This document shows, piece after piece, positions 51,005 to 61,352 of a stretch of DNA of 63,295 bases (its first letter is position 1; the number at the start of each line of letters is the position of its first letter). Source of the stretch: Ilumatobacteraceae bacterium (GTDB taxonomy: Bacteria; Actinomycetota; Acidimicrobiia; Acidimicrobiales; Ilumatobacteraceae); NCBI GenBank assembly GCA_025358075.1, contig JANYKU010000084.1:1-63295 (forward strand), in the 5' to 3' direction. The notes under the pieces were generated by a model. That model had not been told where the DNA came from, searched no databases, and saw only the letters and a program-made list of their open reading frames with translations. Both the position numbers and the translations under genes were made by a program.

Positions 51005-51065
51005 TGCCCGGGGCGGGCATCGAACCCGCACCCACTTTCGTGGAGGGAGGGTTTAAGACTGCTAG
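51005..51065 (-). other. Leu-type tRNA 3' half, att-like site (copy 1)
   Basis: On the minus strand: CTTAAA from the anticodon loop, a type II variable arm with CCAC-GAAA-GTGG, a perfect T arm GCGGG-TTCGATG-CCCGC and the acceptor end CCCGGGC plus A. The 5' half (acceptor, D arm) is missing, so this is not a functional tRNA. Such 3' fragments are attachment-site traces of integration into a tRNA-Leu (UAA anticodon by pattern). A second copy lies at 54080-54139 in the same orientation. Confidence 0.75.
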
Positions 51066-51128
51066 TTCGTGTGTCTTTGGTGCCCTCCAATCTCCTATGT
51101 GCCCAGCGGTCCAGGGATCCGTCCCATC

Positions 51129-51320: not shown

Positions 51321-52025
51321 ATGAACGAAGGCGATGTTGAACTACGAAACCTGACCTACAGGCTGTTCGTCGAACTGGGACGCGCGCCAACAGTCGACGA
51401 CACCGCTGTCGCGATCAGCTCGACCCCCGACGATGTCTGGGCTGGCTGGGAACGACTGCACAGTGGGCATGCGTTGGTGCTGCAGGCAGGCACTCGCGAG
51501 ATTCGCATGGCCAACCCGTTCTCCGCCGTGCCGACCGCGTACCGAGTCTTCGCGGACAACCGCTGGTGGTTCGCCAACTGCGCGTGGGACGCGTTCGGCA
51601 TCGGCGCCGCTCTTCACACCGACAGTCGCATCGAGGCATCGTGCGCCGATTGCGGCGAGCCAATGAGGATCGAAGTGCGCAACGAGGAACCCGACGATGA
51701 CAGCCTGCTGTTCCACTGCCTCGTCCCCGCAATTCGATGGTGGGACGACATCGTCTTCACTTGAGGAACGATGAACCTCTTCCGGTCGGAAGAACACATC
51801 ACCAACTGGCTCGGCACCAGAAACGCCGGGACGACGATCCCCGTGACGAAACTCGGCGAGCTCGCCCACGCCTGGTGGGGTGACCGCATCGACCCGAACT
51901 GGCAACCACGCACCCGGGCACAAAACCAAGCCATCCTGAACGATCTCGGGCTCACCGACCCGTTCTGGAGCCTGTCCGAGGCCGTCGGATCCCCGACAAA
52001 GCTCCGACCGTCTCGCTCCCCCTGA
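51321..52025 (+). CDS. MerB-like organomercurial lyase family, predicted selenoprotein (UGA codon 148)
   Basis: 234 residues if UGA at 51762-51764 is selenocysteine. N-terminal winged-helix-like region RNLTYRLFVELGRAPTVDDT, then the alkylmercury-lyase core: NPFSAVPTAYRV, FANCAWDAFGIGAALHTDS, IEASCADCGEP, IRWWDDIVFT-UGA-GTMNLFRSEEHITNWL. Cys87, Asp90, Cys108 and codon 148 have spacings +3, +21 and +61, against +3, +21 and +63 for Cys96, Asp99, Cys117 and Cys159 of MerB. The reading frame is uninterrupted after UGA to 52025. A 6-bp hairpin with loop GGUC starts 13 nt after the UGA. Ending at UGA would lose the catalytic position and the C-terminal 87 residues. Confidence 0.8.
51778..51793 (+). 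promoter_or_regulatory. SECIS-like hairpin after UGA of the MerB-like gene
   Basis: UCUUCC pairs perfectly with GGAAGA around loop GGUC. The loop starts 19 nt after the UGA, with G at its first two positions followed by U. This fits bacterial SECIS rules and resembles the GGUC-containing loop of E. coli fdhF. Confidence 0.7.
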
Positions 52026-58282: not shown

Positions 58283-58633
58283 ATGAAGGTTCTGCTGATC
58301 ATCAACGGCTCGGCCTACGGGCTGGACTCCACATTCAACGCCATCCGCCTCGCAGGCGCGATGGCAAAGCGCGACGGCGTCGAGGCCCCGGTGTTCCTGA
58401 TGGGTGACGGTGTCACCGCGGCGATGTCTAGCCAGAAGACCCCCGATGGCTACTACAAGCTCGATCGCATGCTCTCGATCGTCACGCGCCACGACGGTCG
58501 CATCTTGTGCTGCGGCACCTGCATGGACGCTCGCGGCATGGCAGACACCATGCTGATCGACGGCGCAGTTCGCTCGACCATGGAAGAACTCACTGACAAC
58601 ACACTCGCCGCCGACAAGGTGCTGGTGTTCTGA
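58283..58633 (+). CDS. DsrE-family protein (second copy)
   Basis: 116 residues: KVLLIINGSAYGLDSTFNAI, KRDGVEAPVFLMGDGV and the Cys motif LCCGTCMDARGM. The C-C-x-x-C cluster is the sulfur-binding loop of DsrE/F-type proteins. Overlaps the SQR start by 1 bp (TGATG). Preceded by a GAGGGAGG Shine-Dalgarno. Confidence 0.88.
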   Translation: MKVLLIINGSAYGLDSTFNAIRLAGAMAKRDGVEAPVFLMGDGVTAAMSSQKTPDGYYKLDRMLSIVTRHDGRILCCGTCMDARGMADTMLIDGAVRSTMEELTDNTLAADKVLVF

Positions 58634-59802
58634 TGATCTCGGCAGCAAGTGAGGAATCAAAGACGGTCCTCGTGCTCGGCGGTGGGGTCGGCGGAGTCGT
58701 CACCGCCAACAGACTTCGCCGCCGCCTGAACAAGCGGCACCGCGTGATCCTGGTCAATCGAGAGCCGCTGTTCAGCTTCGCTGCCTCCTACCTGTGGGTG
58801 ATGACCGGCGAACGCACCGCGGCGCAAGTGACGCGTCCGTTGCAGAAGCTGCGGCGCCGTGGCATCGATGTCGTCATCGGCGACGTGGAAGCGATCGATC
58901 CAGTCAACCGCAGCGCAACCGTGGCCGGGAAGACGATCACGGCCGACTACATGGTCGCCACCCTCGGCGCGGACTTCGCGACAGATGCCATCCCTGGCCT
59001 GTCCGACGCGGGCCGAACCTTCGCCACCCTCCCCGGCGCCCGGCAACTGGGCATCGACATCGACACCATCACCCGCGGACGAATACTCGTCGTCACAGCC
59101 GCACCGCTGTACAAGTGTCCCGCCGCCCCGTACGAGACGGCGCTACTCGCCGACGCCCACCTGCGCCGGCGTGGGGTCCGCGGTGCAATCGAGATTGCCG
59201 TGCACTCGGCAGAACCAATGCCGATGGGCGTGGCCGGCGTCAACGTCGCCGACGCCGTCAAGCAACTCCTCGCCAGCCGCAACATCGACTACGTGCCCAG
59301 CCATCAGATCGCATCCGCCGAACCCGGCCGGGCAATGTTCGCCGATGGCGACACCCAGACCTTCGACCTACTCGCCTACATGCCACCAATCGCCTCGCCT
59401 GCCGTCGTCGCCCTGTCTGCGCTGGCCGGCACCGCAGGGTGGATCGACGTCGACAAACACACCATGCAGACCAGCTTCCCCGGCGTGTATGCGATCGGCG
59501 ACAATGCTCAGATTCCTCTGAGCATCGGCAAGCCGCTACCGCGAGCGGGAGTCTTCGCTCACGCACAGGCCCAAGCCGTGGCCGACAACATCGCAGCCAC
59601 CATCAACGGCAAACAGCCCGCCGCACGCTTCGACGGCCACGGCGGCTGCTTCATCGAAGTCGGCAACGGTCTTGCCGGATACGGGTCGGGCAACTTTTAC
59701 GCCGAACCATCGCCAAGCGTGCAACTGCGCGACCCCGACCGCAAGCAGCACCTCAGCAAGGTTCTGTTCGAAAAGGACGTCATGTGGCGCTGGCTGCGCT
59801 GA
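58633..59802 (+). CDS. Second SQR-type FAD oxidoreductase
   Basis: 389 residues. FAD loop VLGGGVGGVVTANRLRRRL, ATLGAD, the conserved cysteine block PLYKCPAAPYETALLADAHL, and YAIGDNAQIP. Related to the gene at 29271 at family level, though clearly divergent and without the terminal membrane helix block. Coupled to a DsrE gene. Sulfide or other thiol oxidation is likely; quinone coupling is less certain. Confidence 0.85.
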   Translation: MISAASEESKTVLVLGGGVGGVVTANRLRRRLNKRHRVILVNREPLFSFAASYLWVMTGERTAAQVTRPLQKLRRRGIDVVIGDVEAIDPVNRSATVAGKTITADYMVATLGADFATDAIPGLSDAGRTFATLPGARQLGIDIDTITRGRILVVTAAPLYKCPAAPYETALLADAHLRRRGVRGAIEIAVHSAEPMPMGVAGVNVADAVKQLLASRNIDYVPSHQIASAEPGRAMFADGDTQTFDLLAYMPPIASPAVVALSALAGTAGWIDVDKHTMQTSFPGVYAIGDNAQIPLSIGKPLPRAGVFAHAQAQAVADNIAATINGKQPAARFDGHGGCFIEVGNGLAGYGSGNFYAEPSPSVQLRDPDRKQHLSKVLFEKDVMWRWLR

Positions 59803-59822
59803 TGCGGCCATAGGTCAGGGCC

Positions 59823-61352
59823 TCACGCTCGGTAAGAGAGCACGGTCGCCATACCCATTTCGAAGTGGTAGGTGTTGTGGCAGTGCAGCATCCACTGCCC
59901 CGGATTGTCGGCGGCGATATCAATCTCGACTGAGGACATCGGCAGCACGTTCACAGTGTCCTTGCGGGCGTTGCCGTCGCCGACCATCTGGAAAGTGTGG
60001 CCATGGAGGTGGATGGGGTGGAACATCATCGTGTTGTTAACGACTTTCAACCTGAGCCGTTCGCCCTCGCGCACCGTGATCGGTGCACTGTCGGGATAGC
60101 TCCTGCCGTCGATCCCGTGGACATACCCCGACGGGTTGGCGGTCAGGTGGATCGTCTCGGCCCGGTCGGGTGATTTGGACGGCAGGCGCACCGCTTCTGT
60201 AGCAGTGAGATCGTCGTACGTGAGGGTTCGCCCGTTCAGTTCGGTCGGCCTCGATCCCACCGCCGGGACGGTTGCAGCGTCACTCGTGATGAGGAGTGCT
60301 TCAGCCGCGGGATCCGACTTGCCCTCCGGCACGGCGACGATTGGAAATGAGCCGGACTGGGCAGTCACGATCACGTCGTAGCGCTCCCCCATCCCTAACA
60401 CGACGTTGTCGACCTCGTGCGCTGTGACCGGGAACCCGTCAGCGTGGGTCACCGTCAGCCGGTGCCCGCCGACCGCCACGCGATAGGCGGTGTCCGACCC
60501 CGCGTTGATCAGCCGCAACCGCACCCGCTGCCCAGGCTTGGCCTTCACCGTCTCGCGTTCGGACGGACCGCGACCGTTGATCACGTGGAGCGGATAGGTG
60601 ACGTCGCCCGTCAGGCCGCCCATCATCGAACCCATCCCGCCCGACGACGACTGGTTCATGCCACCCATCCCGCCCATGCCACCGGTTGACGAGCCGCTGC
60701 CACCCATGTGTCCAGAATGTCCGCCGCTCTTCTTCAAGTCCGCCAACACGTCTTCCTGGGTGCGCCCGTAGCCATCCAGCCAGTCATCCAACATCAGCGT
60801 CACGTCGAGGTCGGAGTCGACCGGGTCGTTCGGGTCCTCGACGATCAACGGCGCATACAAGCCCTTGTCGAGCTCTAGCCCCATGTGCGGATGGAACCAA
60901 TAGGTGCCGGCATCGGGCGCGGTGAATCGGTACGTGAATCGACCGCCTGTGTCCACCGGTGACTGGGTGAGCCCGTGGACGCCGTCCATGTCGTTGCGCA
61001 AGGCAATCCCGTGCCAGTGCAGCGTGTTCGCCGACGGCAGGTTGTTGATGAACGTCGCTTCCACGAGATCGCCGACCTTCGCCCGGATCCCACCGGAACT
61101 CGGCCGATCACTGAATGCCCACGTCTCCACGTCCCGGCCACCGATCGACACCGTCACCGGCGCCGCAGTCACCATCGCGGTCACCGTGGCCGCGGCCACC
61201 CTGTGTCGCTGCGCGTCGCGGCGCTCGACCGCCGGATCCGTCGGACCCACCGCAGCACCACCGACCGACGACGACGACTTCGCGCCACACGCTGCCAGGA
61301 CCAGCACTCCTCCGCCCGTCACCAACAACTCCCGCCGTGACCACGCTCTCAT
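59823..61352 (-). CDS. Multicopper oxidase, Tat-type lipoprotein, His/Met/Gly insert
   Basis: 509 residues. The N-terminus RAWSRRELLVTGGGVLVLAAC combines a Tat motif with a lipobox (LAAC). Copper motifs are HWHG, HPHMG, HPIHLHGH and HCHNTYHFEMGM in the usual order; Met is the type 1 axial ligand. A Gly/Ser/Met/His-rich segment sits mid-protein (GGHSGHMGGSGSSTG, then repeats of GGM), typical of copper-responsive oxidases. Predicted Cu(I) oxidase at the outer face of the membrane. Confidence 0.92.
   Translation of the reverse strand: MRAWSRRELLVTGGGVLVLAACGAKSSSSVGGAAVGPTDPAVERRDAQRHRVAAATVTAMVTAAPVTVSIGGRDVETWAFSDRPSSGGIRAKVGDLVEATFINNLPSANTLHWHGIALRNDMDGVHGLTQSPVDTGGRFTYRFTAPDAGTYWFHPHMGLELDKGLYAPLIVEDPNDPVDSDLDVTLMLDDWLDGYGRTQEDVLADLKKSGGHSGHMGGSGSSTGGMGGMGGMNQSSSGGMGSMMGGLTGDVTYPLHVINGRGPSERETVKAKPGQRVRLRLINAGSDTAYRVAVGGHRLTVTHADGFPVTAHEVDNVVLGMGERYDVIVTAQSGSFPIVAVPEGKSDPAAEALLITSDAATVPAVGSRPTELNGRTLTYDDLTATEAVRLPSKSPDRAETIHLTANPSGYVHGIDGRSYPDSAPITVREGERLRLKVVNNTMMFHPIHLHGHTFQMVGDGNARKDTVNVLPMSSVEIDIAADNPGQWMLHCHNTYHFEMGMATVLSYRA

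Follow-up and report, generated by a model that had tools for sequence, protein, structure and literature searches.

A MerB-like protein of an Ilumatobacteraceae bacterium and its bacterial relatives with a predicted selenocysteine in the position of the catalytic Cys159

Introduction

Among the closest described counterparts of the gene analyzed here is the organomercurial lyase MerB, in which, according to a published census, Cys96, Asp99 and Cys159 are catalytic and Cys117 is buried (PMC8261052); a second study treats the role of Asp99 and that of thiols in mercury release (PMC4525700). The census was screened for Cys at position 159, with the consequence that a form carrying selenocysteine (Sec) in this place would be missed (PMC8261052).

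Predicted selenoproteins related to MerB have appeared in lists. A "MerB-like organometallic lyase SaoL" with the motif CU is given among predicted selenoproteins in PMC13188914; an alkylmercury lyase MerB-like protein is listed in PMC9312934, and an "Organic mercuric lyase MerB2" in PMC7435645. Since SaoL had already been predicted in print, the idea of a MerB-like selenoprotein is not wholly new. In term searches, "MerB" was absent from the main text of PMC2398784, PMC5029168 and PMC12013277, and literature searches, with supplements and most subscription papers outside their scope, returned no recognizable report of the family described below or of its UAG forms. A UAG codon for Sec, together with a tRNA-Sec of anticodon CUA, has been reported in Geodermatophilaceae for formate dehydrogenase (FDH), the UGSC protein and AhpC; the UAG forms described below share both features, but the MerB-like protein is not named among these selenoproteins in the accessible part of that source (PMC5330540).

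Results and Discussion

The reading frame and its kinship to MerB

The window, i.e., the whole stretch of 63,295 nucleotides that was analyzed, belongs to the genome of an Ilumatobacteraceae bacterium (GCA_025358075.1; 4.44 Mb in 193 contigs, 92.7% complete), in which only one MerB-like gene was found. An earlier note, made from the letters alone, had described a continuous frame from 51321 to 52025 with UGA at codon 148, and had placed Asp90, Cys108 and the UGA at +3, +21 and +61 from Cys87; frame and spacings both hold on the sequence, the TGA at codon 148 being the sole internal stop ahead of a final TGA (Table 1).

Table 1. Features of the MerB-like gene, in positions of the window; counts refer to the aligned relatives, and residue counts to rows with a letter in the column.
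Feature	Position	Strand	Observation
MerB-like selenoprotein (predicted), whole frame	51321..52025	+	234 residues, presumed Sec at 148; start codon common to relatives
Cys87, counterpart of MerB Cys96	51579..51581	+	Cys in 59/60 subfamily-I rows and 12/12 subfamily-II rows
Asp90, counterpart of MerB Asp99	51588..51590	+	Asp in 60/60 subfamily-I rows; Glu in 12/12 subfamily-II rows
Cys108, counterpart of MerB Cys117	51642..51644	+	Subfamily I: Cys in 52/61 rows, Trp in 8, Asp in 1
UGA codon 148, presumed Sec, counterpart of MerB Cys159	51762..51764	+	TGA in 72 and TAG in 3 of 75 rows; TGC in 6 Cys forms
SECIS-like hairpin, TCTTCC-GGTC-GGAAGA	51778..51793	+	6-bp stem; GGUC loop at 51784-51787

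When the UGA is read through, the protein scores 91.4 bits against the Pfam MerB profile (PF03243; cut-off 27), in a match to residues 67-186 that spans the UGA; the upstream part alone reaches 57.9 bits, and the downstream part, at 13.8 bits and below the cut-off, matches the end of the same profile. A UAG form scores 101.7, a subfamily-II member 70.1 and a Cys form 68.0 bits. Scores with the NCBIfam MerB equivalog models remain far below their cut-offs (29.3 vs. 193 and 28 vs. 200 bits), so that the protein falls outside these models. Among solved structures, the best sequence match is MerB2 (PDB 5c17, E 1.7e-6), whose Cys falls on residue 148 in an alignment that continues from there without gaps. 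This Cys is presumably the counterpart of Cys159 of R831b MerB, an assignment taken from knowledge of the family, with which the spacing agrees. An AlphaFold2 model built from a chosen set of 41 aligned rows, without subfamily II and without loci L031 and L067 (omitted because of a stop within the range given), had a pLDDT of 94.3; in a structure search against the PDB, 11 of 11 matches with E <= 0.001 were MerB, headed by 5c17 (E 5e-11, TM 0.63 by query).

Judged by profile and predicted fold, the protein is a member of the MerB superfamily (PF03243), and the assignment of active-site residues is supported by alignment and modeled fold. It resembles MerB (MerB2, PDB 5c17; MerB, PDB 3f0o) in predicted fold, in the counterparts of Cys96, Asp99 and Cys117 and in having the Cys159 column, and differs in the Sec codon that replaces Cys159, in a longer C-terminal part ending in GL..FW, in falling under the NCBIfam cut-offs and in the lack of mer genes seen nearby. 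Since the column of Cys159 holds UGA, presumably Sec, the protein is not a canonical MerB by the definition used in the census (PMC8261052); it may still work like one, with cleavage of organomercurials an inference. SaoL (NF040728), likewise MerB-like and a predicted selenoprotein in PMC13188914, also differs: against its cut-off of 140 bits the protein scores 50.6 read through and 52.3 for the part before the UGA, and the residue preceding the presumed Sec is Thr or Ser in subfamily I and Arg in subfamily II, not the Cys of the CU motif given there.

Relatives and the codon at column 148

A homologue search in 397 genomes of the same order gave a match in 53, and a scan of further genome contigs with peptide patterns gave 53 loci, which by their record titles belong to Actinomycetota, Chloroflexota, Acidobacteriota, Verrucomicrobiota and Planctomycetota and include many MAGs. 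The patterns include WWDDIVFT and EEHITNWL; conservation of those residues is therefore partly a product of selection, but the Arg-Ser codons discussed below were not fixed by them. From 103 loci, 82 with a tblastn match were obtained (L038 and L050, both from the search in the order, had no such match and were not read), and the removal of L001 as a repeat of L021 left 81 rows: 62 of subfamily I, including the window, 13 of subfamily II, and six Cys forms, two of them (L037 and L049) very divergent. Across these 81 distinct rows, column 148 was occupied by TGA in 72, TAG in three and TGC in six, which bears out the expectation that relatives would carry either Cys or a Sec-type codon there. 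The pattern goes beyond chance, as UGA or UAG in this column recurs in the relatives read together with the frame around it and the GGUC loop. An error at the UGA was considered and ruled out, the same codon being found in many assemblies, isolates included; its recurrence in dozens of other assemblies makes an error very unlikely, although read coverage is not part of this evidence.

Several relatives deserve mention in their own right. Subfamily II (L034-L036 and L039-L048) is divergent, with TGA in column 148 and Glu in the Asp99 column; the same hairpin is found in 12 of its 13 members, and selA in all 13 genomes. Nocardioides sp. zg-1230 has two copies (L066 and L074) on two scaffolds, both counted within the 62 subfamily-I rows, both with TGA, and placed inside the clade of UAG forms; two copies likewise occur in the MAG that carries L051 and L060. 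Plasmid homologues of Paraburkholderia sp. PGU19 (L121:3001-3648) and Sphingomonas panacis (L122:2944-3627, annotated as organomercurial lyase) combine Cys at column 148 with Cys in place of Asp at column 90. On a plasmid of Rubrobacter radiotolerans, an annotated merB (L123:2932-3201) terminates at the TGA of column 148; its homology continues in another frame, and this copy therefore looks decayed.

A stop codon or a codon for selenocysteine

If UGA148 were a real stop, the gene would be either a split MerB made from two coupled frames (51321-51764 and 51771-52025) or a decayed remnant. The ATG of the second frame lies only two codons downstream, codon 151 is ATG or GTG in 53 of 62 subfamily-I rows and in 13 of 13 subfamily-II rows, the first frame on its own passes the Pfam cut-off, and the Rubrobacter copy with its UGA does look decayed. 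Against a split or decayed gene, the remaining nine subfamily-I rows have ATC or ATT at codon 151, and columns 140-156 contain no gap in any of the 62 subfamily-I rows. Codon usage also disagrees with termination: the 75 rows of subfamilies I and II have TGA 72 times, TAG three times and TAA never at the internal codon, whereas their own terminal stops, in the 71 genes that do not run off the contig (the other four do), are TGA in 43, TAG in 20 and TAA in eight (Fisher p 9.5e-8; the rows are related, so this value is only a guide). With the GGUC loop of the hairpin and the restriction of TAG to hosts with a CUA tRNA-Sec (both below), stop-codon usage, frame and hairpin are taken to rule out a split gene or pseudogene, for which only a very slim chance remains.

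Decoding of the UGA as tryptophan, or a general readthrough without selenium, has a single point in its favor, the continuation of the frame past the codon. The relatives have Cys and not Trp in this column, the genes themselves end in TGA more often than in any other stop, and UAG accompanies a CUA tRNA-Sec; such decoding is scarcely conceivable.

The SECIS-like hairpin

The 6-bp stem and GGUC loop described in the earlier note are present after the UGA, whereas the distance of 19 nt given there applies to the loop; the stem begins at 13 nt. The loop GGTC is found in 74 of 75 rows of subfamilies I and II (the exception is L045) and in none of the six Cys forms. In the same 74 rows, Arg-Ser is spelled CGGTCG. 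The remainder of these genes contains 91 further Arg-Ser pairs, of which 12 have this spelling; there, CGG accounts for 29% of Arg codons and TCG for 37% of Ser codons.

Pairing was counted for a 7-pair helix in 71 distinct rows, excluding L085 (contig end) and L074. Paired cells amounted to 95.8% (shuffled mean 93.1), 24 cells were changed on both sides (shuffled mean 10.1), and the covariation score was 0.198; none of 500 shuffles was as high in any of these three measures, and for slid control structures the maxima were 66.6% paired, 18 cells changed on both sides and a score of 0.174. Two further counts were not exceptional: three pairs showed changes on both sides, with 78 of 500 shuffles at least as high, and there were eight further pair types, with 156 of 500 at least as high. 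Two of five covariation measures are thus no better than shuffles, which counts against the Sec reading; in addition, 19 of the 71 rows do not form the outermost pair. No Rfam SECIS model matched this site at gathering scores, and relaxing the threshold to E 5 yielded nothing beyond two chance matches to human lncRNAs; a covariance model of the hairpin, searched against its own genome, retrieved the window site and one weak match on contig C15 (E 0.039). The site qualifies as a SECIS-type hairpin through its conserved loop and helix pairing, though not through any Rfam SECIS model.

Selenocysteine machinery

The earlier note had proposed a search for Sec genes in the same genome, and these were found: selA and selB adjoin each other on contig C32 and selD lies on C82, all over their cut-offs, and a tRNA-Sec on C191 is read by ARAGORN with the anticodon UCA. 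A second over-cut-off match of the tRNA-Sec model, on C70, was rejected as a tRNA-Ser. A formate dehydrogenase alpha gene (G000:C48:13191-15074; L113) has one in-frame TGA followed by a hairpin with the loop GGTCT, and is likely a second selenoprotein gene of this genome.

In the order as a whole, the locus search yielded loci for 30 of 56 matches, so that selA could be compared in 28 of 53 matching genomes. The pooled UGA-form genomes had selA in 20 of 22 cases, compared to 237 of 397 genomes overall (p 0.0014); subfamily I alone, with selA in seven of nine genomes, showed no significant link (p 0.32), and selA was present in three of six Cys-form genomes. Two UGA-form genomes (G063 and G018) gave no selA match at E 1e-40, and at E 1e-8 no tRNA-Sec was found in the genome of the UGA form L051; each of these three assemblies is fragmented or a draft, with G018 96% complete.

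UAG forms and the anticodon of tRNA-Sec

The three TAG loci come from Geodermatophilus saharensis, Blastococcus capsensis and Blastococcus saxobsidens, and in each of these genomes the tRNA matched by the tRNA-Sec model has the anticodon CUA, on account of which ARAGORN calls it a tRNA for Pyl; the hosts of the TGA loci L053 and L066 have a UCA tRNA-Sec. Among 112 genomes of the G. saharensis family, six have a full-length subfamily-I gene, with TAG in every case; the three further UAG-form genomes among them have CUA as well, so that six of six UAG genes go together with a CUA tRNA-Sec. The sole full-length Cys form in this family (G467) resides in one of only four of the 112 genomes without a tRNA-Sec match at E 1e-10. 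The best 30 tRNA-Sec loci of the family divide into 22 with CUA and eight with UCA; one genome of the family (G458, L140) has two tRNA-Sec matches, of which the stronger is UCA. The agreement between the internal codon, UGA or UAG, and the anticodon of tRNA-Sec amounts to a test of Sec decoding that nature has provided independently.

A tree of 73 rows groups the copy from Nocardioides (TGA, with a UCA tRNA-Sec) with Blastococcus inside the TAG clade, at a support of 95/79 that is not fully secure, and the UAG forms came out as a single clade in 2% of 200 bootstrap trees. Such a placement would fit a gene that was transferred and then had its codon adapted to the new host.

Taken together, the Sec machinery with a second UGA gene, the codon skew, the GGUC hairpin and the pairing of UAG with a CUA tRNA-Sec make it very likely that UGA148 specifies Sec. 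On comparative evidence, which is strong but includes no experimental demonstration, this decoding is held with near certainty, the selenium in the protein being inferred; in relatives from several bacterial phyla, the codon is very probably decoded in the same way. The central proposal of the earlier note, Sec in the catalytic Cys159 column of a MerB-like protein, is accordingly supported by the machinery, by recurrence and by the Sec-type codon or Cys in that column.

Substrate and proposed mechanism

It is likely that the gene encodes a MerB-fold organometal lyase that contains Sec, an activity inferred in the absence of activity data. Given Sec insertion, the Cys/Asp/Sec triad is most simply read as cleaving C-Hg bonds, which, as an inference, is moderately probable; substrate and advantage of selenium are inferred throughout. 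In the proposed mechanism, the GGUC hairpin that immediately follows the codon would guide SelB, which would bring Sec-tRNA-Sec to UGA148 or, in Geodermatophilaceae, deliver it at UAG by means of the CUA tRNA-Sec. The selenocysteine would take the place of the catalytic Cys159 of MerB, alongside Cys87 (Cys96) and Asp90 (Asp99); selenolate and Cys87 would most likely bind the organometal, first of all an organomercurial, Asp90 would aid protonation of the carbon, and the metal would then be handed to small thiols.

The main rival to a C-Hg lyase retains the Sec MerB-like protein and assigns it another substrate, either a different organometal or organometalloid or a metal that is bound without lyase activity. 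A Pfam scan found no mer family in nine window ORFs and 20 flanking ORFs of ten relatives (one of the nine and two of the 20 had no Pfam family at all), and clustering of the flanking ORFs revealed no partner common to subfamily I; its three largest clusters contain ORFs that overlap the MerB-like gene, and a cluster of ABC-type ATPases, present at eight loci, may be generic. The replacement of Asp by Glu in subfamily II points in the same direction, as do the D99S variants of MerB, which bind other metals according to PMC8261052. What speaks for mercury is the retention of the full MerB triad as Cys87, Asp90 and Sec148, and the placement of selenium, which binds mercury very strongly, in the active site of a MerB-type enzyme. 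Another substrate is therefore possible but rather unlikely, and C-Hg cleavage remains the preferred reading. As a caveat, the designation as organomercurial lyase in the earlier note stands with respect to fold and residues, on which alone the organomercurial substrate rests, no mer neighbors having been seen.

Wider occurrence and genomic neighborhood

On a wider scale, the evidence leans only slightly toward a class of organometal lyases that depend on selenium, carry Sec at the Cys159 position and, though numerous, have been overlooked; it would extend over at least five phyla of bacteria from soil and sediment. The Sec codon in this class, UGA or UAG, would track the anticodon of the host tRNA-Sec, apparently also where a gene has passed from one family to another. 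Such a class, if real, would have escaped notice because annotated proteins end at this codon and surveys of mercury genes demand Cys159. Testable genes are available in named genomes: Blastococcus saxobsidens, Blastococcus capsensis, Geodermatophilus saharensis and Nocardioides sp. zg-1230.

In the window, one neighboring ORF encodes an SNF2 helicase and the ORF on the other side an HxlR regulator; a mycothiol maleylpyruvate isomerase-like protein is encoded farther on. The MerB-like gene looks like a stand-alone, exchanged gene. Just upstream, positions 51005-51095 on the minus strand seem, by their T-arm pattern, to resemble the 3' part of a tRNA gene; neither ARAGORN nor Rfam made a call there, and the stretch is possibly a tRNA remnant or integration scar. 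Farther downstream, at 58633-61352, a gene for a pyridine-nucleotide-disulphide oxidoreductase-type protein adjoins a multicopper oxidase gene.
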